A DNA stretch of 64,000 bases from Spirochaetota bacterium (GTDB lineage: Bacteria > Spirochaetota > Brachyspiria > Brachyspirales > JACRPF01): NCBI GenBank assembly GCA_016214035.1, contig JACRPF010000005.1, positions 248,001 through 312,000 on the forward strand, given 5' to 3'. Position 1 is the first letter of the stretch, and every line of letters starts with the position of its first letter. The position numbers and the translations under genes are program-made. Under the pieces are notes generated by a model that saw only the letters and a program-made list of their open reading frames with translations, was not told the origin of the DNA and did no database searches. Of the stretch, positions 29,461 through 42,735 are shown piece by piece.

Positions 29461-29598
29461 TGCATTATTGTCGCTCTCGCGGTTGTTCGCCGCCTACGCC
29501 ATCCGGGCGGCGGCTCTTTCGGGCGCATCCATGCGTGTATTTCACTTGATATATCGTCATTTTACTCCTTTTGGGTTGCGGGATATGTCCCGCGTTAC

Positions 29599-30207
29599 GC
29601 CGTATGCTGCGATAATATTCCGGCGTACAGTATTATCAGGACCGTGTACTGGGTGCAGGAGCCGGTATGAGCTGTGCCTACACCAGTTTTTTGACGGTGC
29701 ACTCCGGTGCGCGCATGCGAACAACCCGTCGGATTACTGCAGCATCGCGCGTATGTACCCGCCGGAACGTCGTACAGACACAAAAATACAGTGTGCTCAT
29801 CGTAGAAGACAGCCGGAAAATCTTCCGGCCCTTCCGGATTACCGGGAATGTCTCCGCACGCTGTGTATACGCCGGCGCATGTTGCCGGCAGGCTTGCGCA
29901 CGTTCAACATATTCCAGCGTACAGACCTTGTACGTTCTCGCCGTTCGCTGCACCCATGTGCATGTACGACGTACGATGGGAGGTGCACCGCATATTCCAT
30001 CATACGCTGCGGACGAGACGGTGTACGCACCATGCGAGAAAGCGTATGTTGTACTCGAGCAGGCGTATGTTCTTTATACGCGCTCACCATCAACTGCATA
30101 CAGGTGCGTGTGCTGCGTATGCCGGTGCATGTATTGTACGAGCTGATGTATGGGTTGCGCGTTACAGCTTACGGACAGCATGAGCCGGTGTATGCTGAGC
30201 GTATGCT
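29599..30207. repeat. Array of 29 degenerate 21-bp units in unbroken register
   Basis: Cutting the DNA every 21 bp from 29599 lines up a recurring core near the start of each unit, roughly (C/A)CGGYGTAYG. Examples: CCGGCGTAC at 29620, ACCGTGTAC at 29641, CCAGCGTAC at 29914, AAGCGTATG at 30040, AGGCGTATG at 30061, GGTGTATGC at 30187. Individual units differ widely, but no insertion or deletion breaks the 21-bp phase over 609 bp. All six frames therefore show heptad-like patterns. The plus frame from TTG 29468 stays open to 30271 (267 codons, rich in Arg, Cys and Tyr), without a clear ribosome site. The gap 29457-30463 holds no other gene I can support. Confidence 0.7.
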
Positions 30208-30276
30208 GGAATATTTTTGTTGTTTTGGGCATTATGAAAAATGGAAATCATGCGTGATCATGTGCCGATAAGGTGC

Positions 30277-30463: not shown

Positions 30464-31258
30464 ATGAACACGATAGCAGATCATTTGACCGGCCGTTCGT
30501 CAATAATTCTCATCCTGCTGGCGCTCTCACTATGCTGCCTCGGTTCGGAAAATAAAAAATCCGGCGCTCAAGCGGACAACGGTCCGGAAAAGCTCATCTA
30601 TATGTGCGAAGACATTCCTCCGTCCAATTATCTTGAACACGGTGAACTTAAGGGGATATCCGTCGAAATGCTCCGGCTAGTATGGAAACAGATGGGAGTT
30701 CCGTCACAGACGATCAAGATTGTACCCTGGGCAAGGGGCTATCACACTGTTCAGAGTCAGAGCAACTGTGTTCTTTTTTCAATGACCCGGACCCGTGAAC
30801 GGGAACGATTGTTTAAGTGGGTCGGACCTATCTTTACCGTAAAGAATGTACTCATGGGCCGAACCGACAAAATCCTGAAAATCGATACGATTGATGCCGC
30901 AAAGAAACTGCGGATCGGCACTATTAAGGACGATGTGCTTGAAAAATATCTGCTTCAGTCCGGTTTTTTACCGGATAAGATCGACGGTGTTGCGGCCATG
31001 GAACAGAACTTTGACAAGCTGCGGGCAGGACGGATCGATTGTATCGCGCATACCGAGCAGACTTTACGGCAGTACATCCGCAATAATAAACTTGATCAGG
31101 ATGGGTTCCGGGTGTTCTTTGTCCTGTCCGACAGCCCGAATTATTATGCGTTCAGCAGGGAAACGCCGGACACGCTGATACAGCAGTTCCAGAAAGCGCT
31201 TGAACAGCTTGCCGACGAACACCATGCTTTGCTGGAACGATATGGATTGTCGCCGTGA
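30464..31258 (+). CDS. Periplasmic solute-binding protein (SBP_bac_3 type), probable sensor partner
   Basis: 264 residues from ATG 30464 (GGAG 6 bases upstream; frame is open further upstream but runs through the promoter). The N-terminal hydrophobic segment ends LSLCC, a loose lipobox or a signal-peptide end. The body is a family-3 binding protein: YMCEDIPPSNY, GISVEMLRLVWKQMG, FSMTRTRERERLFKWVGPI and a KLRIGTIKDDVLEKYL hinge. It resembles polar amino-acid binding proteins, but no ABC permease is nearby. Direct placement before a histidine kinase suggests ligand presentation to that kinase. Confidence 0.82.
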   Translation: MNTIADHLTGRSSIILILLALSLCCLGSENKKSGAQADNGPEKLIYMCEDIPPSNYLEHGELKGISVEMLRLVWKQMGVPSQTIKIVPWARGYHTVQSQSNCVLFSMTRTRERERLFKWVGPIFTVKNVLMGRTDKILKIDTIDAAKKLRIGTIKDDVLEKYLLQSGFLPDKIDGVAAMEQNFDKLRAGRIDCIAHTEQTLRQYIRNNKLDQDGFRVFFVLSDSPNYYAFSRETPDTLIQQFQKALEQLADEHHALLERYGLSP

Positions 31259-31307
31259 AACAGGCACTGTTGATGCCGGCATTCAGGGGACAATACGGGG
31301 GTACGCG

Positions 31308-34289
31308 TTGAAACAGACGGGAACATCCATTGCGGTCGTCGTCGTCGCGGTCATTGTCTTTGCGGTGCTGTTGCTTGCAGCGGCAGCCGGCACCATCGGG
31401 TATACGTTGTATGAACGGCAGGAGCGGATGGAAATAAACGCGCTCCTTATTGTCGTTACAGAACAGGCAAAAACAGCACTCGCCCTGCCGCTGTGGAATT
31501 TCGACGGCAGACAGATAGCACAGGCAGTCGAAAGCATCATGAAGGAACGGTCGGTATACGCCGTCGTGGTCAGCCAGACAAAACCCGAATCGGTCGTTCT
31601 TGCGCGCGGACGGAATGCAGCATGGGAACCGGTCGCCATAGAGCATCCGCCGCTGTCGGGAACATTTCTCACGCGTACTGCGGATATCATGCATGAAGGG
31701 GATATCATCGGCAGCATACAGGTGTATACCACGGTCCAGTTCCTGAAAGAACGACTGGCAAAAACGCGGTTGCTTATCATAGTATGTATCACCATCGCCA
31801 CGCTCCTGCTGACGTTACTGCTCTACGCGCTGCTCTGGCGTTTTGTTCTGAAACCGATAACGGTACTTGAGCGGCATACGCTTGACATCAAACATGGTGT
31901 GGCGACACGAACGCTTGCATCGGCGGGCCCGTTCTTCGGCGAATTGGATACGCTTCGTATCTCCATTGCCGGCATGGTCGAACTGCTTGAGACCCGCTAT
32001 GTCGATCTGCAGCGGAAAGAGGCGGAGCTTCGTGAAAGCGAGTTGTTCCGCAAACGGATTTTCGATACATCCCGGGTGCCTATCGTGGTTATCGATTACG
32101 ATAATTCCCGATATGTCGACTGCAATCCCGCCGCGGTGCAGATATACGGTTACAAAAATCGCGAGGATATTCTCGGTAAAACGCCCGTAGACTTTTCGGC
32201 ACCCGTGCAATACGACGGCACACATTCCACCGTCAAGGCGCCCATCTACATCGCGCAGGCTGTCAATGAAGGATCGGTCATCTTTGAGTGGCGGCATCAG
32301 CGGCCCGACGGGGAACAGTGGGACGCCGAAGTCCATCTGATGAGTTTCAAGACCGGCGAACATCGATTTCTGCAGTTCACGCTTCAGGACATCACTGAGC
32401 GCAAACGCGTTGAACAGGCATTTCAAATGAGCGAGGCCAAGTATCATACGCTGTTCGACGTGGCAAGTGATGCGATATTCCTTATGGAAGACGGACGTTT
32501 TATCGAATGCAATCAGCGGACACTCGCCGTCTTCGGGGCATCTCGGGAACAGATACTGGATCGGTCCCCCGATCAATTCTCTCCGCCGCAGCAGCCCGAC
32601 GGAAGCACTTCCCGTGTAAAAGCGCTGGAACTGATATCGCTGGCACTGGAAGGAAAACCGCAGTCATTCGAATGGCTGCATTGCCGTCATGACGGAACAC
32701 CGTTTCATGCCGAAGTGGGCCTTACACGGATAGAATACCAGGGGAAGGTCCAATTGCTCGCGATCGTCCGTGATATCTCCGAACGGAAACGCATCGAAAA
32801 TGAGCTGAGAGAAAGTGAGGAACGATATCGTGTGCTTGTGGAAAAATTGCCGATCGGCATTGTTGTTTCACAGGGAGATACCATCGTTTATGCCAATAAC
32901 GCAATTTCCCGAATGATAGGCGTGCTGAATGATGAAAGCATCATCGGCAGAAATATCTACGATTTCATACCGCAGGAATATCGGGGACGGGCTCAATCAC
33001 GACGGCAGGCACTGTCGGCATCAACACCGATGGCTGACGTCGAAGAATTCATGATATGCACCATGGCCGGAGCTCAGATTCCCGCAGAAGTCCAAGCGGT
33101 GCGTATTATGTTCAATGGATCTCCCGCTATTTTAAATCTTGTTGTTGATGTCACTGAGCGCAAAAAAGCCGAATATAATCTGCGAGAAAGCGAAGAACGG
33201 TTCCGACAGATCGCTGAAAACATACAGGAGATATTTTTTCTTTATGAAAAAGACGGCGACAAGCTGCTCTATATGAGCCCGGTCATCGCATCTGTTTTCG
33301 GCGTTTCCATCGATATGGTACATGCAAATCGCAGCATCATAGACCGTGCAGTTCTGCCGGAGGATCTGCCGCATGTTGATTTCATACATCCGGAGCGTTT
33401 CTACGAGAAACCACTTGACGAGGAATTCAGGGTGCGCCGGCCGGACGGCGAGGTCCGATGGGTACGATTGCGCTCGTTTCTGGTCCGCAATGCGGATGGA
33501 GATGTTATTCGTGTTGCGGGGCTTGCAGCGGATGTCACCGACCGCCATGTGGCTGAAGCGCAGCGGCTGAAGATGATGCAGGCGGAGAAACTCGTTTCGC
33601 TCGGTGAGCTCTCTGCCGGCATCGCACACGAGCTGACGCAACCGCTTTCCGCGCTGTCAATGAACGCGGAAGGCATGCTGATGCGGTTCGCCGAGGGAGA
33701 CATTGACCGGGAAAAGGTCGTGCATAATCTTGAAAACATGGTCTCATACACACAACGTATGAAAAAGCTCATTGAGCATGTGCGCCTGTTCTCACGCGAC
33801 CAGAAAGAAGAAATGCAAAGCGAGTTCGATGTGCGCACATCAGTCAGCAACGCGTTATCGCTTATCGGCGTCCAGCTTGCGAACCGGGGATTCGCCGTTT
33901 CAGTGCGGCTGCCCGAGAATGCCGCATGCCTGGTAACCGGCAATACCTTTCGCCTCGAACAGGTCATCATCAACATGCTTACCAATGCTCGTGACGCCGT
34001 CGAGGCCGCCGGACGGACCGAAAAACGAATCGATATCGCGGTACGGACGGAGGGCGCAGCGGTGGAGCTGCACATCCGCGACAACGGCAGCGGTATCGCC
34101 CCGGATGCGATAAGCAAGATATTCGATCCGTTTTTCACGACAAAGGCGGCGGATAAGGGAACAGGGCTTGGTCTTTCCATAAGTTATGGTATCATAAAAG
34201 AGATGCGCGGCGAAATACGGCTTACGAGCGATGTCGGCGTCGGCACGGAATTCATTATCAGCCTGCCGTCGGCTGTAAAAGCGAGTTGA
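31308..34289 (+). CDS. Membrane histidine kinase with four PAS domains
   Basis: 993 residues from TTG 31308 (GGGGG about 7 bases upstream; places the membrane segment at the N terminus). An in-frame ATG at 31242 is the alternative. Order: membrane segment (~7-32), periplasmic domain (~33-165), membrane segment (~167-190), HAMP-like linker, PAS (~255-370), PAS (~375-495), PAS (~500-615), PAS (~620-735). The HisKA domain follows, with the phosphorylated His in GIAHELTQPLSAL (~770), then HATPase with NMLTNARDAV, DNGSGI and GTGLGLSISYGI. It should phosphorylate the NtrC-type regulator encoded one base downstream. Confidence 0.92.
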   Translation: MKQTGTSIAVVVVAVIVFAVLLLAAAAGTIGYTLYERQERMEINALLIVVTEQAKTALALPLWNFDGRQIAQAVESIMKERSVYAVVVSQTKPESVVLARGRNAAWEPVAIEHPPLSGTFLTRTADIMHEGDIIGSIQVYTTVQFLKERLAKTRLLIIVCITIATLLLTLLLYALLWRFVLKPITVLERHTLDIKHGVATRTLASAGPFFGELDTLRISIAGMVELLETRYVDLQRKEAELRESELFRKRIFDTSRVPIVVIDYDNSRYVDCNPAAVQIYGYKNREDILGKTPVDFSAPVQYDGTHSTVKAPIYIAQAVNEGSVIFEWRHQRPDGEQWDAEVHLMSFKTGEHRFLQFTLQDITERKRVEQAFQMSEAKYHTLFDVASDAIFLMEDGRFIECNQRTLAVFGASREQILDRSPDQFSPPQQPDGSTSRVKALELISLALEGKPQSFEWLHCRHDGTPFHAEVGLTRIEYQGKVQLLAIVRDISERKRIENELRESEERYRVLVEKLPIGIVVSQGDTIVYANNAISRMIGVLNDESIIGRNIYDFIPQEYRGRAQSRRQALSASTPMADVEEFMICTMAGAQIPAEVQAVRIMFNGSPAILNLVVDVTERKKAEYNLRESEERFRQIAENIQEIFFLYEKDGDKLLYMSPVIASVFGVSIDMVHANRSIIDRAVLPEDLPHVDFIHPERFYEKPLDEEFRVRRPDGEVRWVRLRSFLVRNADGDVIRVAGLAADVTDRHVAEAQRLKMMQAEKLVSLGELSAGIAHELTQPLSALSMNAEGMLMRFAEGDIDREKVVHNLENMVSYTQRMKKLIEHVRLFSRDQKEEMQSEFDVRTSVSNALSLIGVQLANRGFAVSVRLPENAACLVTGNTFRLEQVIINMLTNARDAVEAAGRTEKRIDIAVRTEGAAVELHIRDNGSGIAPDAISKIFDPFFTTKAADKGTGLGLSISYGIIKEMRGEIRLTSDVGVGTEFIISLPSAVKAS

Positions 34290-34290
34290 T

Positions 34291-35661
34291 ATGGACAGCA
34301 TCGGCGTATTGGTCATTGACGATGAGGAGATACTGCGCAGAGAGATCGTGACGAATCTTGAGGGACCATCATACCGTTTCTTCGAGGCGGGCAATGCGGA
34401 CGACGCGTTCGCCGTCTTCGCGAAAGAACGCATCGATATCGCCATCCTTGACATACGTCTGCCGGGGCGTGACGGCTTTTCCATTCTCGAACAGATAAAA
34501 AAAGAAAACCCCGAATGCGAAGTGATCATGATGACCGGTCACGGCGACAACACCAGCGTCCTTACCGCGCTGCGTCTGGGGGCATTCGACTTTTTTTTCA
34601 AACCGCTGAGCCTTTCCGAGATCAAAGGCGCCATCCAGCGCACCAGGAAATACATAGAATTGAACTCCCGTTACAAGGAAATGCAGAATGCGTACATGCT
34701 CGCATCCGACGAGCTCAGGTCATTCGTGGGCGACCTGGTCGGAACAAGTGAGGCGATGAAAGCGGTGATGAATCTGGCGCTGAAAGCCGCCGCATCTCCG
34801 GCAACGGCGGTGCTCATCACCGGGGAAAGCGGTACCGGCAAAGAGCTCATCGCGCGCACCATCCATTATGCCAGCGACAGGAGCAGACACATCTTTTATG
34901 CGCTCAACGCCAGCGCCATACCGGAGTCGCTCATGGAAAGCGAATTCTTCGGCCATGTAAAAGGCTCGTTCACCGGAGCGGAGACCGATAAAGCCGGCTG
35001 TTTTGAGGCGGCTGACGGCGGCACATTATTCCTTGACGAGATCGGCGATATGCCGCTTGCGATGCAGGCTAAAATTCTCCGCGCACTCGAGGAGCGTACG
35101 TTCAAACGTCTCGGCAGTCATAAGGAGATGCCGTTCGATGTGCGCATCATATCCGCCACGAACGCCGATATCCGTGATATGGTCGCGAAGAACAATTTCA
35201 GGCAGGACCTCTTTCACCGTCTCAATACGCTGGAAATAGCGGTGCCGCCGCTCCGCGAGCGCACCGAGGACATACCGCTGCTGGCGGAGCATTTCTGCAA
35301 AAAGATCGGCAGCGCCATGGGAAAACCCGATACCAGCATCGATCAGCAGGCGCTCGAACAGCTCAAGCATTACCGGTTTCCCGGGAACATCAGGGAACTT
35401 AAAAACATGATTGAACGCGCGCTCATTCTCTGCGATGGAAAAATGCTTGAAGCAAAGCATTTTCCGATACAGAGCGCAGCTGCGCCATGTTCAGAATCAG
35501 CGCCGCTTCAAATTCCGGAGGGCGGACTTGAAGCGCTTGAACGTGAGATAATTCAGCAGGCGCTTACCGCGAATCAGCATAATAAAACGGCAGTAGCTAA
35601 ATTGTTAAAAATATCACGGCAGGCACTCGACCGGAAACTTGAAAAGTTGAACATTCTGTGA
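34291..35661 (+). CDS. NtrC-family sigma-54-dependent response regulator
   Basis: 456 residues. Receiver domain (~1-120) with DDEE, phosphoacceptor Asp in AILDIRLPG, MMTGH and FFKPLS. AAA+ domain (~145-375): Walker A GESGTGKE, the sigma-54 contact loop as GSFTGA in place of GAFTGA, Walker B GGTLFLDEIGD, arginine finger region FRQDLFHRLN. C-terminal Fis-type helix-turn-helix (LEREIIQQALTANQHNKTAVAKLLKISRQAL). It starts one base after the kinase stop. A consensus sigma-54 promoter lies 124 bp after its stop codon. Confidence 0.95.
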   Translation: MDSIGVLVIDDEEILRREIVTNLEGPSYRFFEAGNADDAFAVFAKERIDIAILDIRLPGRDGFSILEQIKKENPECEVIMMTGHGDNTSVLTALRLGAFDFFFKPLSLSEIKGAIQRTRKYIELNSRYKEMQNAYMLASDELRSFVGDLVGTSEAMKAVMNLALKAAASPATAVLITGESGTGKELIARTIHYASDRSRHIFYALNASAIPESLMESEFFGHVKGSFTGAETDKAGCFEAADGGTLFLDEIGDMPLAMQAKILRALEERTFKRLGSHKEMPFDVRIISATNADIRDMVAKNNFRQDLFHRLNTLEIAVPPLRERTEDIPLLAEHFCKKIGSAMGKPDTSIDQQALEQLKHYRFPGNIRELKNMIERALILCDGKMLEAKHFPIQSAAAPCSESAPLQIPEGGLEALEREIIQQALTANQHNKTAVAKLLKISRQALDRKLEKLNIL

Positions 35662-35720
35662 TATCCGCATAACGGCCGCAGCGCCGGACGCCTGATTCCG
35701 GGCTATCTGCCCGCACATCC

Positions 35721-35734
35721 GCCCGAATTCGGGC
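35721..35734. promoter_or_regulatory. Palindrome, candidate enhancer site for the NtrC-type regulator
   Basis: Perfect 14-bp palindrome GCCCGAATTCGGGC, centred about 83 bp upstream of the predicted sigma-54 transcription start. That is a usual distance for an activator dimer. A half site TGCCCG lies just upstream at 35708. Confidence 0.5.
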
Positions 35735-35784
35735 ACCTCTGTTCCGACATCAGTAAAAAAAACATCGCCCGTGCTCTTTTTCGC

Positions 35785-35800
35785 TGGCACGCATCTTGCA
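35785..35800 (+). promoter_or_regulatory. Sigma-54 promoter (-24/-12)
   Basis: TGGCACG, four bases, TTGCA: an exact match to the consensus TGGCACG-N4-TTGCW. The expected start is near 35811, 38 nt before the first small gene of the chemosensory operon. Confidence 0.9.
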
Positions 35801-35848
35801 ACCCTAGAGATGTATTGCAATTCTGCGTGAGGCAGGCAAGGAGCCATT

Positions 35849-36043
35849 ATGAAATCACGATGCTGTGAATGCTGCGGGAGCACATCGGCCGCCCTGTATG
35901 ATGTCTCTGCTGCTGCGCGGGAATACACGTGGCTCTGCAATGATTGTATCGTTGAGCTTTTCAATGTCATATCCATCGATGTACGTGATAATAACGCACA
36001 GCATGCTGCTGAGCCGGTTGTGCGGGGAGAACATCATGAATGA
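35849..36043 (+). CDS. Mini zinc-ribbon protein 1
   Basis: 64 residues. Cysteine pattern CCECCG near the N terminus and C-x2-C (WLCNDC) about 22 residues later: a probable single zinc site. The aromatic/charged stretch LYDVSAAAREYTW between the pairs is shared with the two genes that follow. Ribosome site AAGGAG precedes ATG by 6 bases. It is the first gene downstream of the sigma-54 promoter. The family is not recognised; possible roles are a metal or redox sensor, an adaptor or a nucleic-acid binder. It overlaps the next gene by eight bases. Confidence 0.72.
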   Translation: MKSRCCECCGSTSAALYDVSAAAREYTWLCNDCIVELFNVISIDVRDNNAQHAAEPVVRGEHHE

Positions 36044-36227
36044 GAAGACATGTGACTGCTGCGGAGCTCCGGGTGTCCGGTTCTATGACGTGCGGCGATA
36101 CGACAGCCGCTACACCATCGTATGCGGTAAATGTTTTCTTGCTATACTCGATGACATCCTCGCCGCAAACGACAGCGGCATAACTGCCGGAACACCGCCG
36201 GAAGGGGTCACCCATGGAAATGCATGA
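36036..36227 (+). CDS. Mini zinc-ribbon protein 2
   Basis: 63 residues from ATG 36036 (GGGGAG 7 bases upstream, within the previous gene). CDCCGAPGVRFYDVRRYDSR followed by VCGKC repeats the layout of its neighbours: CxxCG, 20-odd residues with F/L-Y-D/T, then CxxC and a hydrophobic helix (FLAILDDIL). Overlap with the next gene is 14 bases. It is paralogous to 35849 and 36214, although identity outside the cysteines is low. Confidence 0.72.
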   Translation: MNEKTCDCCGAPGVRFYDVRRYDSRYTIVCGKCFLAILDDILAANDSGITAGTPPEGVTHGNA

Positions 36228-36402
36228 ATGTGAACACTGCAAAAAGATCACGGCGCGGCTGTATACGTTCCGTGATGCAGCCGGCCGGCAGCGATTACTG
36301 TGCAGTGCATGTTTTATTGAAGCCGTCAGAACACCGTCCACTCCGGCAAATAATGATATGACGCTTAATGTCCATGACGCTGATTCTTCGGGAGGATTAT
36401 GA
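36214..36402 (+). CDS. Mini zinc-ribbon protein 3
   Basis: 62 residues. [20 protein letters not shown] and [11 protein letters not shown] give the same CxxC-x(~22)-CxxC skeleton as the two preceding genes. It has an 8-9 residue acidic/Ser tail. Its stop overlaps the next start by four bases (ATGA), so all three are translationally linked to the chemoreceptor-like gene. The function is unknown. Confidence 0.72.
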
Positions 36403-37688
36403 AAGCGCTACCCCGGCACATACTGCCGTTCAGCGGTGTTGCGGCACTCGCACTTGCTGCAGCTGTAATCCCTTCACTGCCGCTTCGTATGGCCGCAGTA
36501 CTCTCCGCTGCGACGATCACGCTCATCCCTATGATCATCGCGTCGAAGAAATGCGCACAGGCCGAAGCGAAATGCGCGGCGCTTGACGACGAACGCCGGA
36601 AGATAATGCAGGCCGCGGAAGCGAAGGTGTCACTCGCCCGTGCCGCTCATATGCAGGAGACCGAATCGGCTATGGCTGTACTCAAAAACGAGATCGCCGT
36701 ACGTGAGCGAAAGATAGAGGAATTATCAGTCTTGGTAAGCCCCGTTGCGGGCATGCTCAACGAACGGACCAAGGGCATCGGCGTGCTCGTGGGCCAGCTT
36801 ACCGCGGTACGCGAGCAGATAGAGACGACGGCCGTTGATCTTTCGAAAAGTTTCCTCGATATCAACGCAAAGGCGCGGCATCAGTCCGAAAAGACCGCCG
36901 ATGTCTTCGGCGTACTGTCCGGCAACGGCCTTGCCGCGGGCGGCACCGTGCTTGACGTCACCAAGGATGTCATGCGCGGATTGATGGATAATTTCCGCGC
37001 CACCACGGGAATAACGAAAAAGAACCTCGACGGCATCGGGCGCATCATCGAACAGGCTGAGAACATCAGCGAGATAATCGCGAGCATCGGCGGCATCGCG
37101 GACCGGACGAACGTGCTCGCCATCAATGCGGCCATCGAGGCGGCGCGCGCCGGGGAGAGCGGTAAAGGTTTTGCGGTGGTCGCCCACGAAGTACGGAAAT
37201 TATCCAAACTCAGCGAGAACGCGGCCAGGGAGATAGGGCGCATCCTTGAGGAAGTGATGGATGCCGCACGGAGCATGCATGCGGAGATAACCGAAGGTGC
37301 AGCAACGATCAGCCGGAACACTGCCGATGCCGAATCGGCGTTCGATTCGACTCTCGCGGCCATCAATAATACGATCGAGGACGTAAAACGCGAGCTGCAT
37401 ACGCTGAAGAAGGACACCGAGGCGCTGGCGGCGGATACGAACGCCATCGTGATATCCATGCAGTCGCACGACATCATCCGCCAGCGCGTTGAACACGTCA
37501 TCGGACCGCTCACTGATTTCGGCGACGAACTGAAGCAGATCGCCGGCACCATGGCAAGCGATGCGGCTGGACGTACATCCGGTACGGAACATACCGGCGA
37601 CATTGCGCGGTATCTTTCCGGTTTTTACACGATGCAGGTAGAAAAAGACATTCTGCATAAAACACTCGCGGCGAACGCCGCATCATGA
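36399..37688 (+). CDS. Methyl-accepting chemotaxis-type protein without periplasmic domain
   Basis: 429 residues. Two adjacent hydrophobic segments (~10-30 and 32-48) form a hairpin with essentially no external loop. A coiled coil follows (~50-110), then an MCP signalling domain whose hairpin tip reads [26 protein letters not shown] with [15 protein letters not shown]. The tip region is diverged from the E/Q-rich consensus, and the methylation helices look poor in Glu pairs. The C-terminal part ([15 protein letters not shown]) resembles cytosolic MCPs that bind partners of non-flagellar chemosensory arrays. It starts the large proteins of the sigma-54 operon. Confidence 0.85.
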
Positions 37689-37699
37689 GGAGGATGGTT

Positions 37700-38065
37700 A
37701 TGGGAGCACAGATTCTTATCGTTGACGATTCACCGTCGATGCGCCAGATGGTGAATTTCACGCTGGCCGAGGACGGGTACGAGATTGTTGAGGCTGATTC
37801 CGGTATCACGGCGATCAGGGAGCTTTCGGTTTTCACGCCGAAGCTTGTCATCACCGACATCAATATGCCGGGGATGAGCGGTATCGAACTTATCAAAAAT
37901 ATCCGCAAGGATAGTAAAAGCAAATTCCTGCCCGTCATCGTGTTGACAACGGAATCGGAGCAGGGAAAGCAGGACGAGGGCAAGTCGGCCGGCGCAACCG
38001 CATGGCTCGTAAAACCGTTCACGCCGGATAAACTGAAAGAGACCGTCAAGAAAGTTGTCGGATAG
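37700..38065 (+). CDS. cheY: CheY-like single-domain response regulator
   Basis: 121 residues from ATG 37700 (GGAGG 6 bases upstream; the ATG at 37685 lacks one). Complete receiver: acidic DD in IVDDSPSMRQMV, phosphoacceptor Asp in VITDINMPGMSG, Thr in VLTTES, Lys in WLVKPF. It is probably phosphorylated by CheA of the same operon and passes the signal to an output. Confidence 0.93.
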   Translation: MGAQILIVDDSPSMRQMVNFTLAEDGYEIVEADSGITAIRELSVFTPKLVITDINMPGMSGIELIKNIRKDSKSKFLPVIVLTTESEQGKQDEGKSAGATAWLVKPFTPDKLKETVKKVVG

Positions 38066-38106
38066 CGCGGGACTATTTTAGGGCGAATATATACAAGGAG
38101 AACACC

Positions 38107-38445
38107 ATGTTTATCATCGAAACGGGGAAAATCGAAAACACACTGACCATACGGATTGAAGGTGAGGCGACCATCGCGCGCGCGAAGGAGATACATGCGG
38201 TATTTGTCGCAGCATCTCGTGAGGCGCAGGTTGAGATCGACATGAGCCGCATCACACAAGTCGACTTGTCGTTCCTGCAGCTTATTCATGCGCTCACACG
38301 TTCCATATCGTCACGCGGCTCGAAATTGCGTTTCAGCACCATGCCGCCCGCGGCAGTGCTGTCCTACGCAAAATGTATCGGCTGCTGTATCGGTCATTGG
38401 GGATTTCATGCCCAGGCCGATAACGTCGAAACCGCTGCCGCATAG
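38107..38445 (+). CDS. STAS-domain (anti-anti-sigma-like) protein
   Basis: 112 residues. STAS fold: GKIENTLTIRIEGEATIARA, then the loop VDLSFLQLIHAL that carries the conserved phosphorylatable Ser (DLS). Cysteines occur at KCIGCCIG near the C terminus, which is unusual. Ribosome site AAGGAG lies 7 bases before ATG. Positioned between CheY and CheA, it may be phosphorylated or may compete for a partner, as STAS proteins do in partner-switching systems. The SpoIIE phosphatase at 3332 is a theoretical partner. Confidence 0.85.
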   Translation: MFIIETGKIENTLTIRIEGEATIARAKEIHAVFVAASREAQVEIDMSRITQVDLSFLQLIHALTRSISSRGSKLRFSTMPPAAVLSYAKCIGCCIGHWGFHAQADNVETAAA

Positions 38446-38462
38446 GCACAGGGATAACGGCC

Positions 38463-40571
38463 ATGGACATCAGCAGACTCAGCGAGACATACAAAGAAGA
38501 AGCGCATGAGCTTCTCGGAAAAGCCGAACACTGTCTCATCGACCTGGAACATGCGCCATCGGATGGAGAGATCATCAATACGATATTCCGCTCGCTGCAC
38601 ACGATCAAAGGTTCCGGAAGCATGTTCGGTTTCAACCGCATCGCCGGGTTTACGCATGAGTTTGAGAACCTATTCGACATGATACGCACGGGCGCCGTTA
38701 CCGTCACCAAAGACATCATCGATCTTACCCTCTCCGCATGTGATCACATCCGGCTGCTCCTGGGTGATGAAACCGTTCCTCAGACGGACACGGAGTCATT
38801 GAGTTTCCGGTTGCGAAACATCATCCCTGCGAGCGGAAAAGATGTTCGATTGGAACCGGCAGCGCAGCATGACACAAACGCCTTGTCGACCTATCGGATC
38901 ACGTTCAAGCCGCATGAGACCATATTCCTGCGCGGAATAAATCTTGTGCCCATTTTCGATGAATTACATACGTTCGGCACGGTCATCGTCTCGGGATGCC
39001 CGGGTACGATGCGGCTTGCCGACATGGATCCGGAACGCTGCTATGCTTCATGGACGATACTGCTGACAACTGAACGGTCATACAACGACATACGCACGAT
39101 TTTCGTGTTCGTCGAAGATGACAGTGACCTTGCCATCGACCTCATCGACAGTGCAGATATGAATCCCGGCGATGCCACCTATAAACGCATCGGCGACATC
39201 CTCGTGGAACGCGGCGATCTTACGGACGAGATGCTTGCCGCGATGCTTGAAGGGCATAAGCTTATCGGCGAGATGGCCGTGGAGAAGGGGCTGGTGGCGC
39301 CTGAAGCGGTCGACGCCGCGCTTGCCGAACAGAGCGTTGTGCGCAGCGAACGGTCCAAACGGCAGAATGACACAGCCAGGATGAGCATCCGTGTGAAAAG
39401 CGAAAAGCTCGATTCGCTCGTGAACCTTGCCGGCGAGATGGTAACGCTTACCGCGCGCTTCAATCAACGGGTTTCCGAAAACGGCGGTGAAAGTGACGTC
39501 CTTGTGGAGATGCTCACTCGCCTCACGGACGAGCTCCGCGACACATCGATGGCAATGCGGATGGTCCCTGTGGAAGAGATGTTCAGCGGATACGCGCGGC
39601 TCGTGCGTGATCTTGCAAAAGACCTCGGCAAGGACATCGATCTTGTGACCGCGGGCAATGATACCGAACTCGACAAGAACATCATCGAAGCGCTGAAAGA
39701 CCCGCTCATGCATATCATACGGAACGCCGCCGACCACGGTATTGAAACGCCCGAAGCTCGACGGGCTGTCGGTAAGGACGCACAGGGAACGATCCGCCTT
39801 TCGGCCGAACATGCGGGTGCGCATGTACTCATCACGGTGTCCGACGACGGCGGTGGACTTGACCGGTCGCGCATTCTGAAGAAAGCCGTTGAACGCGGAC
39901 TTGTGAAGGAGAACGCGGGACTTTCTGCTCACGAGATCGAACAGATGATATTTCTTCCCGGCTTCTCAACAGCGGAAAAAACGACAAGCGTCTCAGGACG
40001 CGGTGTAGGCATGGATATAGTAAAGAAGAACGTGGAAAAACTCCGCGGCACAGTAGAGATACGTTCAGAAGCGGGGAAAGGGACTATGTTTACACTCAAG
40101 ATCCCGCTCACCCTCGCCATCGTCGACGGCCTGCTTGCGCGTATCGGCGACGACCACTTCGTGCTCAACATATCGAACATCGATGAATGCGTGGACCTCA
40201 CCGAGGATATCGTTGCCTCCGGTCACGGCAGTGAGGTGGTACATTTTCGCGGAGAGATAATCCCGTTTGTACGGCTCAGAAAAAGCTTCGGCATCGGCGG
40301 TGAACGGCCTGCGGTCGAACGCATGGTGGTTATCCGCATCGGCGACCGGCGTATCGGGCTTGTGGTGGATGACGTTCTCGGCAAACATCAGACGGTGATC
40401 AAATCGCTCGGCAGTTCGTTCAGCGGCATCGACGAGGTCGCCGGTGCTACGATACTCGGCGACGGCACGGTGGCGCTCATTTTAGATGTAACCATGATAA
40501 TACAGCATACGATCGACACAGCGGATCGGGGAGGCGGGATGGCGATACGAAATATCATCGGAGTGTCGTGA
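38463..40571 (+). CDS. cheA: Chemotaxis histidine kinase CheA
   Basis: 702 residues. HPt domain with the phosphorylated His46 in SLHTIKGSGSMFG. The next region (~140-230) is of the 'FKPHETIFLRGINLVPIFDEL' kind in place of the enteric P2. A short LGE/VERG-type repeat (IGDILVERGDLTDEMLAAML) lies near 250, resembling MshEN modules. The dimerisation helix (SLVNLAGEMVTL) is followed by an ATPase domain with HIIRNAADHGIE, DDGGGLD and GRGVGMDIVKKN. The C-terminal CheW-like domain ends the protein. It couples the two receptors here to CheY. Confidence 0.95.
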   Translation: MDISRLSETYKEEAHELLGKAEHCLIDLEHAPSDGEIINTIFRSLHTIKGSGSMFGFNRIAGFTHEFENLFDMIRTGAVTVTKDIIDLTLSACDHIRLLLGDETVPQTDTESLSFRLRNIIPASGKDVRLEPAAQHDTNALSTYRITFKPHETIFLRGINLVPIFDELHTFGTVIVSGCPGTMRLADMDPERCYASWTILLTTERSYNDIRTIFVFVEDDSDLAIDLIDSADMNPGDATYKRIGDILVERGDLTDEMLAAMLEGHKLIGEMAVEKGLVAPEAVDAALAEQSVVRSERSKRQNDTARMSIRVKSEKLDSLVNLAGEMVTLTARFNQRVSENGGESDVLVEMLTRLTDELRDTSMAMRMVPVEEMFSGYARLVRDLAKDLGKDIDLVTAGNDTELDKNIIEALKDPLMHIIRNAADHGIETPEARRAVGKDAQGTIRLSAEHAGAHVLITVSDDGGGLDRSRILKKAVERGLVKENAGLSAHEIEQMIFLPGFSTAEKTTSVSGRGVGMDIVKKNVEKLRGTVEIRSEAGKGTMFTLKIPLTLAIVDGLLARIGDDHFVLNISNIDECVDLTEDIVASGHGSEVVHFRGEIIPFVRLRKSFGIGGERPAVERMVVIRIGDRRIGLVVDDVLGKHQTVIKSLGSSFSGIDEVAGATILGDGTVALILDVTMIIQHTIDTADRGGGMAIRNIIGVS

Positions 40572-40632
40572 CGCGGGTCGGAGTGCCGTAGCGGGCGTAT
40601 GCCCGTGAGAATAGAATAAAAGGAGTCTGAAA

Positions 40633-42210
40633 ATGAAAATGAATTTTTTACCGAGATTGGTGCTGGGATTTGCCTGCATGATCGTCATTTCACTTGTCGT
40701 GGGGACCATCGGCATCACGCAGATGAAACGAATAGACAATGCCGACACATTTCTTTATGAGAAGACCACCGCTCCGCTTGGATATGTGGTGACTATGGTA
40801 GATACATTTCAACAGGCGCACCGGTCAGTACGCGAGATGGCGTTTGCAAAATCGACGAAAGAGATAGATGAGCAGCTTGGGAAAGTGCAATCACTGGCAA
40901 TGGAATCTGCCAAGGTTGAAAAGCTCTATGAAACGACATTCATTGACGAGAACGACAGGAAATTGTACGCCGACTTCAGCGAATATAAAAAAGCGTATGT
41001 GGGGAACGTGATGAAATATGCAGGGCTTCTTAAGAGCGGAGAGACAAAGACCGCTGCCGCCGTATGGGATTCGGACGTTTCTCCATCGGCAGAGCGGGTG
41101 CACGACAAGATGAAAGAAATAGCAGCAGGTAACGTTGTCGCGGCGAAGGATGTGTCCGACAGCAACACAAAACTGGCGAATCTGTCGACGATCGTCATGA
41201 TAATTTCCATGATCGCCGGCTTCATACTCGCCGTCGTCCTTGGTGTCGTGATCGTTCGTTCCACGATGAGGCCGATAGAAGTGATCAGTCAGTCGGCCAA
41301 TAATGTCGCTTCGGGCAGTGAACAGCTCAGTTCTTCGGCGGAGGAACTGTCGCAGGGGGCAAGCGAACAGGCGGCGAGTGTGGAGGAAGTATCGGCCTCC
41401 GTTGAGGAGATGACGGCGACGATTCGTCAGAACACCGACAATGCGAGCCAGACAGAGAAGATCGCCAAGAAAAGCGCGTCGGACGCCAGGGACGGCGGCG
41501 AAGCGGTGAAACAGACGGTGAAAGCGATGAAAGAGATCGCCGACAAGGTGAGCATCATCCAGGAGATCGCGCGGCAGACGAACCTGCTGTCACTCAACGC
41601 CTCGATAGAAGCGGCGCGGGCGGGCGAGCACGGCAAAGGGTTTGCGGTGGTCGCGAGCGAAGTGCAGAAACTCGCCGACCGCAGCCAGAAAGCGGCCGGT
41701 GAGATAGGCGAATTGTCAAAATCGAGCGTCCTGGTCGCCGAACGCGCGGGGACCATGCTTGAAAAGCTCGTGCCCGACATCCAGAAAACAGCGGAACTGG
41801 TCGCCGAGATAAACGCGGCAAGCGGCGAACAGAACAACGGCGCGCAGCAGATTAACAATGCCGTACAGCAGCTGAACAGTGTCGTCCAGCAGAACGCATC
41901 GGGCGCTGAAGAAGTGGCTTCAACATCGGAAGAGCTCGCGTCTCAGGCTGTGCAGATGCGCGAGGCGATCACGTTCTTCACCAGCGACAAGACGAACCGT
42001 GCTGCAGTGATTGACCATGCGTCTAAGAAAAAGATATCCGTCCACGACAAACCGCTGTCACCCGTCCATCATAACGGACATGATACACAGGCAAAGCATA
42101 TTGAGATCAAGGAGACGGCGGGTGTTGCGGCGAAGAACAAGGCAAAAGGATTTGCATACGAACTGTCCAATCCGATAGACGCCGAAGATGAATCGTTCAA
42201 AAAGTATTGA
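40633..42210 (+). CDS. Methyl-accepting chemotaxis protein, four-helix-bundle sensor
   Basis: 525 residues. Membrane segment ~8-28, periplasmic four-helix bundle (4HB_MCP) ~30-185, membrane segment ~187-210, and then no clear HAMP domain before the signalling domain. The hairpin tip [36 protein letters not shown] is a standard MCP tip, with methylation-type helices on both sides ([20 protein letters not shown] and [17 protein letters not shown]). The tail ([13 protein letters not shown]) is not the CheR-binding pentapeptide NWETF. Ribosome site AAAGGAG. Confidence 0.93.
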
Positions 42211-42222
42211 GACGGAGCCGTT

Positions 42223-42735
42223 ATGGGAACCAAAACAATGACAACGCTGGAGTCGAAACAGTATCTCACCTTCGGTCTCGACAGCGGGCAGTTCGCATTC
42301 GAGGTGCTCAAGGTGAAGGAAGTGCTCGAGGTGGCTCGGGTGACCAAGGTGCCGAAGACACCGCCGTTCATGGCGGGTGTCATCAACCTGCGCGGCGGCG
42401 TGGTGCCGGTGATCGACCTCCGCCTGAAGTTCGGGATGGATTGCACGGACCGCACGGTGGACACGGCGATAATCATCGTGGAGACGGCGTACGACGGGGA
42501 TACCATCGTCGTCGGCGCGCTGGTAGATGCGGTGAACGAGGTGATACGCCTTGATACGTCGCAGATAGAAACACCGCCGAAGGTGGGGATGAACGTGAGT
42601 GGTGAATTCATAGAGAGCATCGGGAAAAAAGGCGACGAGTTTATCATCATCCTCGATTCTGATAAAGTCTTCTCGCAGAAGGAGCTTGAATTCGTGAATG
42701 AGGTTGCGAAGGAATCGGAGCCGGTTTCCGCATAA
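42223..42735 (+). CDS. cheW: CheW coupling protein
   Basis: 170 residues of one CheW domain: YLTFGLDSGQFAFEVLKVKEVLEV, FMAGVINLRGGVVPVIDLR, VDAVNEVIRL and FIESIGKKGDEFIIILD. It bridges CheA and the receptors. It is the last gene of the sigma-54 operon, 12 bp after the receptor gene, and is followed by a terminator. No cheR, cheB or cheD is present in the operon. Confidence 0.95.
   Translation: MGTKTMTTLESKQYLTFGLDSGQFAFEVLKVKEVLEVARVTKVPKTPPFMAGVINLRGGVVPVIDLRLKFGMDCTDRTVDTAIIIVETAYDGDTIVVGALVDAVNEVIRLDTSQIETPPKVGMNVSGEFIESIGKKGDEFIIILDSDKVFSQKELEFVNEVAKESEPVSA

Follow-up and report, generated by a model that had tools for sequence, protein, structure and literature searches.

Small four-cysteine proteins encoded ahead of a spirochaete chemosensory operon belong to a lineage-restricted family linked to sigma-54-type promoters

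Gene content of the locus

In the window (the whole 64 kb stretch of DNA that was analysed; all features from 31200 to 42735 lie on the + strand), the gene of a multi-PAS histidine kinase (31200..34289; Pfam PAS, HisKA and HATPase_c) is followed by that of an NtrC-type response regulator (34291..35661), which consists of a receiver (Response_reg, E = 5.2e-27), a sigma-54 activation AAA+ domain (Sigma54_activat, E = 2.1e-67) and a Fis-type HTH (HTH_8, E = 1.8e-11). A perfect sigma-54 −24/−12 match, TGGCACGCATCTTGCA (35785..35800), lies 64 bp 5' of the first of three small genes, and no other place in the 64 kb comes within one mismatch of TGGCAC-N5-TTGC; the 34291 protein is a candidate activator of this promoter. 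With rpoN present in the source genome, the elements by which a sigma-54 regulon is recognised in sequence (−24/−12 promoter, rpoN and NtrC-type activator) are all found there. Cys/Tyr-rich overlapping ORFs were seen before the kinase gene (29468-30271), and no tandem repeats were found behind those near 29.5–30.2 kb.

The small genes (mini gene 1, 35849..36043, 64 aa; mini gene 2, 36036..36227, 63 aa; mini gene 3, 36214..36402, 62 aa) are each preceded by a Shine-Dalgarno-like purine-rich stretch and, as a sequence-only reading of this DNA had described, overlap each other and the receptor gene. Gene 1 shares 8 bases with gene 2, gene 2 shares 14 with gene 3, and gene 3 shares 4 with the receptor gene, which starts at 36399. 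The same reading had given their cysteine pattern as CxxC-x(~22)-CxxC; both pairs are there, and the spacing is exactly CxxC-x20-CxxC. C-x2-C-x20-C-x2-C occurs in 3 of the 519 window ORFs of at least 40 aa, namely these three.

The adjoining receptor gene (36399..37688) encodes an MCP signalling domain (PF00015, E = 9.8e-31). The receptor had been called soluble, which is contradicted by its hydropathy: it begins with a hydrophobic membrane hairpin within residues 6–50 (36414..36548; loop with P25 and R30) that is common to six family-adjacent receptors. No ligand-binding domain was recognised in it by Pfam. DIIRQ, a CheZ-like DxxxQ signature (37470..37484), is kept in the homologues at loci L009, L011, L049 and L050, and the C-terminal motif reads FYTMxxEKxIlHKTL; the Pfam CheZ match is weak (E 0.06). 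Since a receptor version lacking the MCP domain (L049:7749-8567 in G001) keeps both the DIIRQ and FYTM motifs, that hairpin protein may be a membrane-anchored CheY-P phosphatase. Downstream follow CheY (37700..38065; Response_reg, E = 8.8e-28 for the longer frame that begins at 37685), a STAS-domain protein (38107..38445; STAS_2, E = 1.6e-13), CheA (38463..40571; Hpt, H-kinase_dim, HATPase_c and CheW domains), a second chemoreceptor (40633..42210; 4HB_MCP_1 and MCPsignal) and, at the end of the cluster, CheW (42223..42735; assigned by reading the sequence).

Conserved residues and predicted fold

None of the four cysteines varied among the 22 sequences aligned, which come from two genera and a distant family; their spacing was nearly constant, and such a set probably forms a Zn(Cys)4 site. 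Further favoured positions were L-[YF] at 16–17, Y at 22, V ahead of the third Cys and an acidic residue behind the first. The proposal that the three proteins are homologous small metal-site proteins tied to the chemosensory operon is thus upheld: other genomes hold copies, and the cysteines persist throughout the alignment. AlphaFold2 models were computed from alignments of 21 members for gene 2 and 19 for gene 3. Strands were predicted at residues 16–18 and 28–30 with a helix at 31–46 for gene 2, and strands at 17–20 and 26–29 with a helix at 31–39 for gene 3 (block pLDDT about 81–92 over residues 1–40; tails of low confidence). In both models the helix begins at residue 31, at the second Cys pair (C30, C33), and the proteins are therefore predicted to follow the treble-clef plan, with two Cys pairs, a hairpin between them and the second pair at the helix N-terminus. 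The zinc ribbon that had been proposed, in which both Cys pairs sit in beta-hairpin knuckles and there is no helix, does not agree with these models.

Foldseek neighbours of the two models were largely treble clefs (L24e, p62 ZZ, GATA and ClpX, with a ClpX chain as first match for gene 2); none reached E < 0.001, as expected for only 40 ordered residues. No Pfam or NCBIfam model scored above its cut-off for the family, probably because the members are short and diverged. The best DUF7685 (PF24734) match had 22.7 bits against a curated cut-off of 27, with none above the cut-off genome-wide; at E < 0.1, 11 of the 22 members matched DUF7685 and 10 matched DUF7573 (PF24458), the best at 9.4e-5 and 8.4e-4, respectively. 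One member weakly matched an NCBIfam decaheme cytochrome model (E 4.5e-4), which was set aside as probably a CxxC artefact. Pfam detected neither CZB (PF13682) nor a UVR motif among the 22 members, and a PDB sequence search returned nothing.

Distribution of the family

A whole-genome search of the source genome (5.2 Mb, 22 contigs) identified 14 copies at nine loci. The family is not a chance collection, since gene 2 as a lone query had already retrieved most paralogues before any profile existed, and the 14-sequence profile found its own 14 members at E ≤ 2.2e-18 with the next best match at E = 0.085. The sister genus, the only other genome examined in the same family, has seven copies at five loci; only these two genomes are rich in copies, and the operons within one genome are paralogues. 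A search of 29 further genomes from the order (1.8–3.4 Mb; 26–31% G+C where sampled) yielded no copy. In a 393-genome sample of the phylum, with the best 15 candidates per genome scored, one further genome (G040, another family) appeared among the matches listed, with two copies. Its first copy scored E = 4.8e-5 before inclusion in any profile; a later profile gave 4.9e-15 and 7e-7 for the two copies, the first figure being inflated because that profile contains the first copy. This copy overlaps the 3' end of cheD (PF03975, E = 6e-18), with a sigma-54-like site (two mismatches) 99 bp ahead of the likely cheD start; the second copy has no sigma-54 site.

A wider profile yielded four extra matches phylum-wide among the matches listed (G071, G245, G290 and G043; E 1.6e-4 to 8e-4). 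The G071 match (E 4e-4) was rejected as it reads as a McsA-type protein, and those in G245 and G290 were rejected as they had no matching small ORF. Profile scans of the named genome collection found no relative. Members are 51–99 aa long, the start codons of the first copies in L009 and L011 being uncertain, nearly all are single-finger, and identity among them is low (about 20–40%). By these sequence comparisons the family is lineage-restricted, fast-evolving and previously uncatalogued.

Promoters and neighbouring genes

Sigma-54 sites within 120 bp were counted for the family units at 14 loci in both genera: 10 of 14 had a site with at most one mismatch, 11 with at most two and 12 with at most three, against 0, 2 and 5 of 146 control genes from the same loci. 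The operons at L010 and L050 are headed by a CheY-like gene, with the site in front of it; the units without a site are L012 (inside a gene run) and L017 (a lone gene). Genome-wide, only 22 sites fit the stricter pattern TGGCRY-N5-TTGCW. Other credible sigma-54 targets, as read from the sequence (amtB/glnK, three times, groEL, grpE-dnaK, hsp20, cheW and cheY), carry no mini gene, and the family therefore appears to mark a subset of the sigma-54 regulon, above all its signalling subset. The heat-shock genes groEL, hsp20 and grpE-dnaK (G000 L087, L095 and L101; likewise from reading) have sigma-54-like promoters. Histidine kinase and NtrC-type genes adjoin the units in the window and at L010, L011, L014 and L015; L009, L013, L049, L050 and L052 have no NtrC gene directly upstream.

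Copies stand beside receptor genes at 7 of the 14 loci, besides the distant copy that overlaps cheD. At six of these seven (the window, L009, L011, L015, L049 and L050) the gene directly 3' of the mini genes encodes the same kind of membrane-hairpin N-terminus, and at L052 a CZB-domain receptor lies directly behind the finger gene. In this receptor (L052:7670-9577, +) the CZB domain is near the N-terminus (residues 58–128), before HAMP, rather than C-terminal. Both ends of the hairpin, presumed cytoplasmic, carry positive residues, and the P25/R30 loop is common to five aligned proteins. Across these six loci the hairpin is the constant partner of the fingers, because it is kept even in L049, where the MCP domain is lost, and in L015, where the CheZ-like tail is lost and the MCP tip is retained. 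Among 26 MCP-domain matches in the source genome, those of hairpin type, identified by frame length and place, were three full-length proteins and one short one, and all four stand behind fingers.

The seven loci without an adjacent receptor comprise two with DUF4912/glycosylase genes, two with GGDEF-EAL genes, one with a CheY-like gene, one with secreted proteins and one lone gene. A PAS-GGDEF-EAL protein is encoded behind the finger at L014 and a putative GGDEF-EAL gene, placed by gene order like L014, at L051; DUF4912 and a formamidopyrimidine-DNA-glycosylase-like gene follow at L013 and L051. The order finger-DUF4912-glycosylase, with a sigma-54 site ahead, was seen in both genera (L013:6491-7880, −; L051:4853-6278, −), and the orders response regulator-A-B and NtrC-finger-GGDEF-EAL are likewise kept in both, A and B being the first- and last-position copies. 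L010 has a CheY-like gene, two fingers and then a Cys-rich 71-aa ORF (L010:8973-9188, +; CPFFND...YC...CARY). At its start this ORF overlaps the second finger gene's stop, and it has no Pfam match. L012 has its fingers beside secreted proteins, and at L017 the gene stands alone.

Gene order and divergence

The finger tree was poorly resolved (deep split, support 78/80); in both genera it largely separated the copies in first position (A) from those in last position (B), for which reason A-B-receptor may be the ancestral order. Gene 2 of the window falls in group A and gene 3, adjoining the receptor, in group B; gene 1 pairs with the copy at G000:C18 (L015) with support 99/98. Copies number one, two or three per operon, often as an A-then-B pair, and the hetero-trimer that had been imagined is for this reason rejected as a general rule.

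Three operons of the source genome (window, C12 and C18), which are paralogues and not independent events, were compared pairwise. Identity was 31–38% for A and 34–49% for B fingers; in the receptor it was 38–62% for the hairpin, 51–62% for the proximal coil and 83–94% for the MCP core; it was 83–93% for CheY and 75–93% for the CheA core. Divergence thus appears concentrated at the input end, though the STAS protein (34–68%) and the CheA P2 region (45–69%) diverge too. The STAS gene lies between cheY and cheA in all three operons and in L049, and diverges faster than CheA and CheY. Weak constraint alone could account for rapid finger divergence, but it is insufficient given that the four cysteines and their spacing are preserved.

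Discussion

At the level of sequence, the observations establish a family with invariant cysteines, sigma-54-type promoters, adjacency to signalling genes and a recurrent A-B-receptor order. The family is new to the libraries searched; as a type it is akin to zinc-finger regulators already known to act on signalling enzymes. The sequence-only reading knew of no chemotaxis system with such components; this stands in part, in that no Pfam or NCBIfam model matches above its cut-off and nothing relevant was found in open-licence literature on small zinc-finger, zinc-ribbon or treble-clef chemosensory components, an absence that is weak evidence.

The best sequence link outside the family is the N-terminal zinc domain of McsA-type (UVR-motif) proteins (hhalign probability 68%, pairwise E 5e-5), which has the same CxxC-x(~20)-CxxC arrangement and a helix after the second pair. 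McsA has a kinase partner and uses a zinc finger as a thiol switch: under thiol stress the second zinc finger of McsA becomes oxidised and loses its contact with the McsB kinase (PMC7235348). The family itself was rejected as McsA, since its members are short, in nearly all cases single-finger and without a UVR match; the McsA-like protein of G071 has about 190 aa and is more than a finger, and McsA comes with UVR in an mcsB/clpC setting whereas the family is sigma-54-linked with mostly signalling neighbours. CZB domains, which contain zinc, control the activity of chemoreceptors as well as of diguanylate cyclases (PMC8262984), and in a 2026 preprint chemotaxis through CZB is connected with the availability of zinc (PMC13370339). 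The predicted zinc site of the family may likewise serve both chemoreceptors and second-messenger enzymes, and a CZB receptor lies behind the finger at L052; CZB, however, is a 3His/1Cys domain fused to its receptor, whereas the mini proteins are separate four-cysteine proteins with no sequence relation to it. DUF7685 and DUF7573 are also short Cys-pair domains, with matches below cut-off. The ClpX N-terminal zinc domain, L24e and GATA share the predicted fold (knuckle, beta hairpin and second CxxC at the helix start) but gave no significant structural or sequence match.

A metal or redox sensor or a receptor adaptor is the best-supported candidate class of function. In the form that we tentatively favour, at a little under an even chance, the mini proteins would be stand-alone treble-clef zinc proteins that act as an input module or adaptor at their cognate signalling protein. 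The upstream kinase/NtrC pair (31200 and 34291) would switch the operon on through sigma-54, and the mini proteins would then be translated in step with the receptor. In the cytoplasm they would bind the membrane-hairpin/proximal coiled-coil end of the cognate receptor, and elsewhere the GGDEF-EAL protein of their operon. A zinc-thiolate switch is plausible, in which oxidation, metal loss or another partner would alter their affinity and so set CheA activity, much as the McsA zinc fingers act on the McsB kinase, although here each finger would be a protein of its own.

The strongest rival, because sigma-54 sites (12 of 14 at up to three mismatches) accompany the family more uniformly than receptors do (7 of 14), is feedback: the mini proteins would bind the NtrC-type AAA+ activator, or the kinase, and damp or license transcription of their own operon, as PspA acts on PspF and FleN on FleQ. 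The sigma-54 promoters are the most uniform feature of the family, kinase and NtrC-type genes adjoin several loci, the mini genes stand first in the transcript, and copies before non-receptor operons would be accounted for. Feedback is nevertheless unlikely in our estimate, as other sigma-54-type operons of the same genome do without a copy, five loci have no NtrC gene directly upstream, the second G040 copy has no sigma-54 site, and neither the presence of as many as three different copies in one operon nor the A-B-receptor order would be explained.

The McsA likeness and the ClpX chain as first, non-significant Foldseek match for gene 2 could also point to a role in proteolysis or assembly, in which the fingers would hand the products of the operon over to Clp proteases, protect those products or help the receptor to assemble; with an hhalign probability of only 0.7% for the ClpX zinc domain, and since a general adaptor would need no operon-specific diverged copies, we consider this quite improbable. 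Binding to the DNA or mRNA of the operon by treble-clef regulators is suggested by L24e and GATA among the Foldseek neighbours, and small zinc fingers often do so, but all those matches are non-significant, the favoured positions are Cys, hydrophobic and aromatic with no conserved basic patch evident in the alignment, and an Rfam search of the window found no family, which makes such a role very unlikely. Equally hard to credit is the reading that these are lineage-specific zinc proteins that serve no dedicated function and were duplicated together with their operons: few genomes carry the family and identity is low, yet the 22 copies compared, from two genera and a distant family, all keep the four cysteines at near-constant spacing, and gene arrangements are kept in both genera.

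For the input-module reading, a more specific form is doubtful, if conceivable: separate operon-specific finger pairs or triplets would replace the ligand-binding domain of hairpin receptors and gate GGDEF-EAL enzymes, and operons would trade input specificity through swaps of these 60-residue proteins, with sigma-54 in control. If true, this would be a new class of chemosensory component. What a receptor senses when it has no ligand-binding domain is a question that this system would make testable, because such receptors travel here with dedicated mini, probably zinc-binding proteins whose divergence equals or exceeds that of the receptor input end. A sigma-54 site followed by a 60-aa CxxC-x20-CxxC gene also offers a marker, visible in sequence, for signalling operons in a poorly studied lineage.
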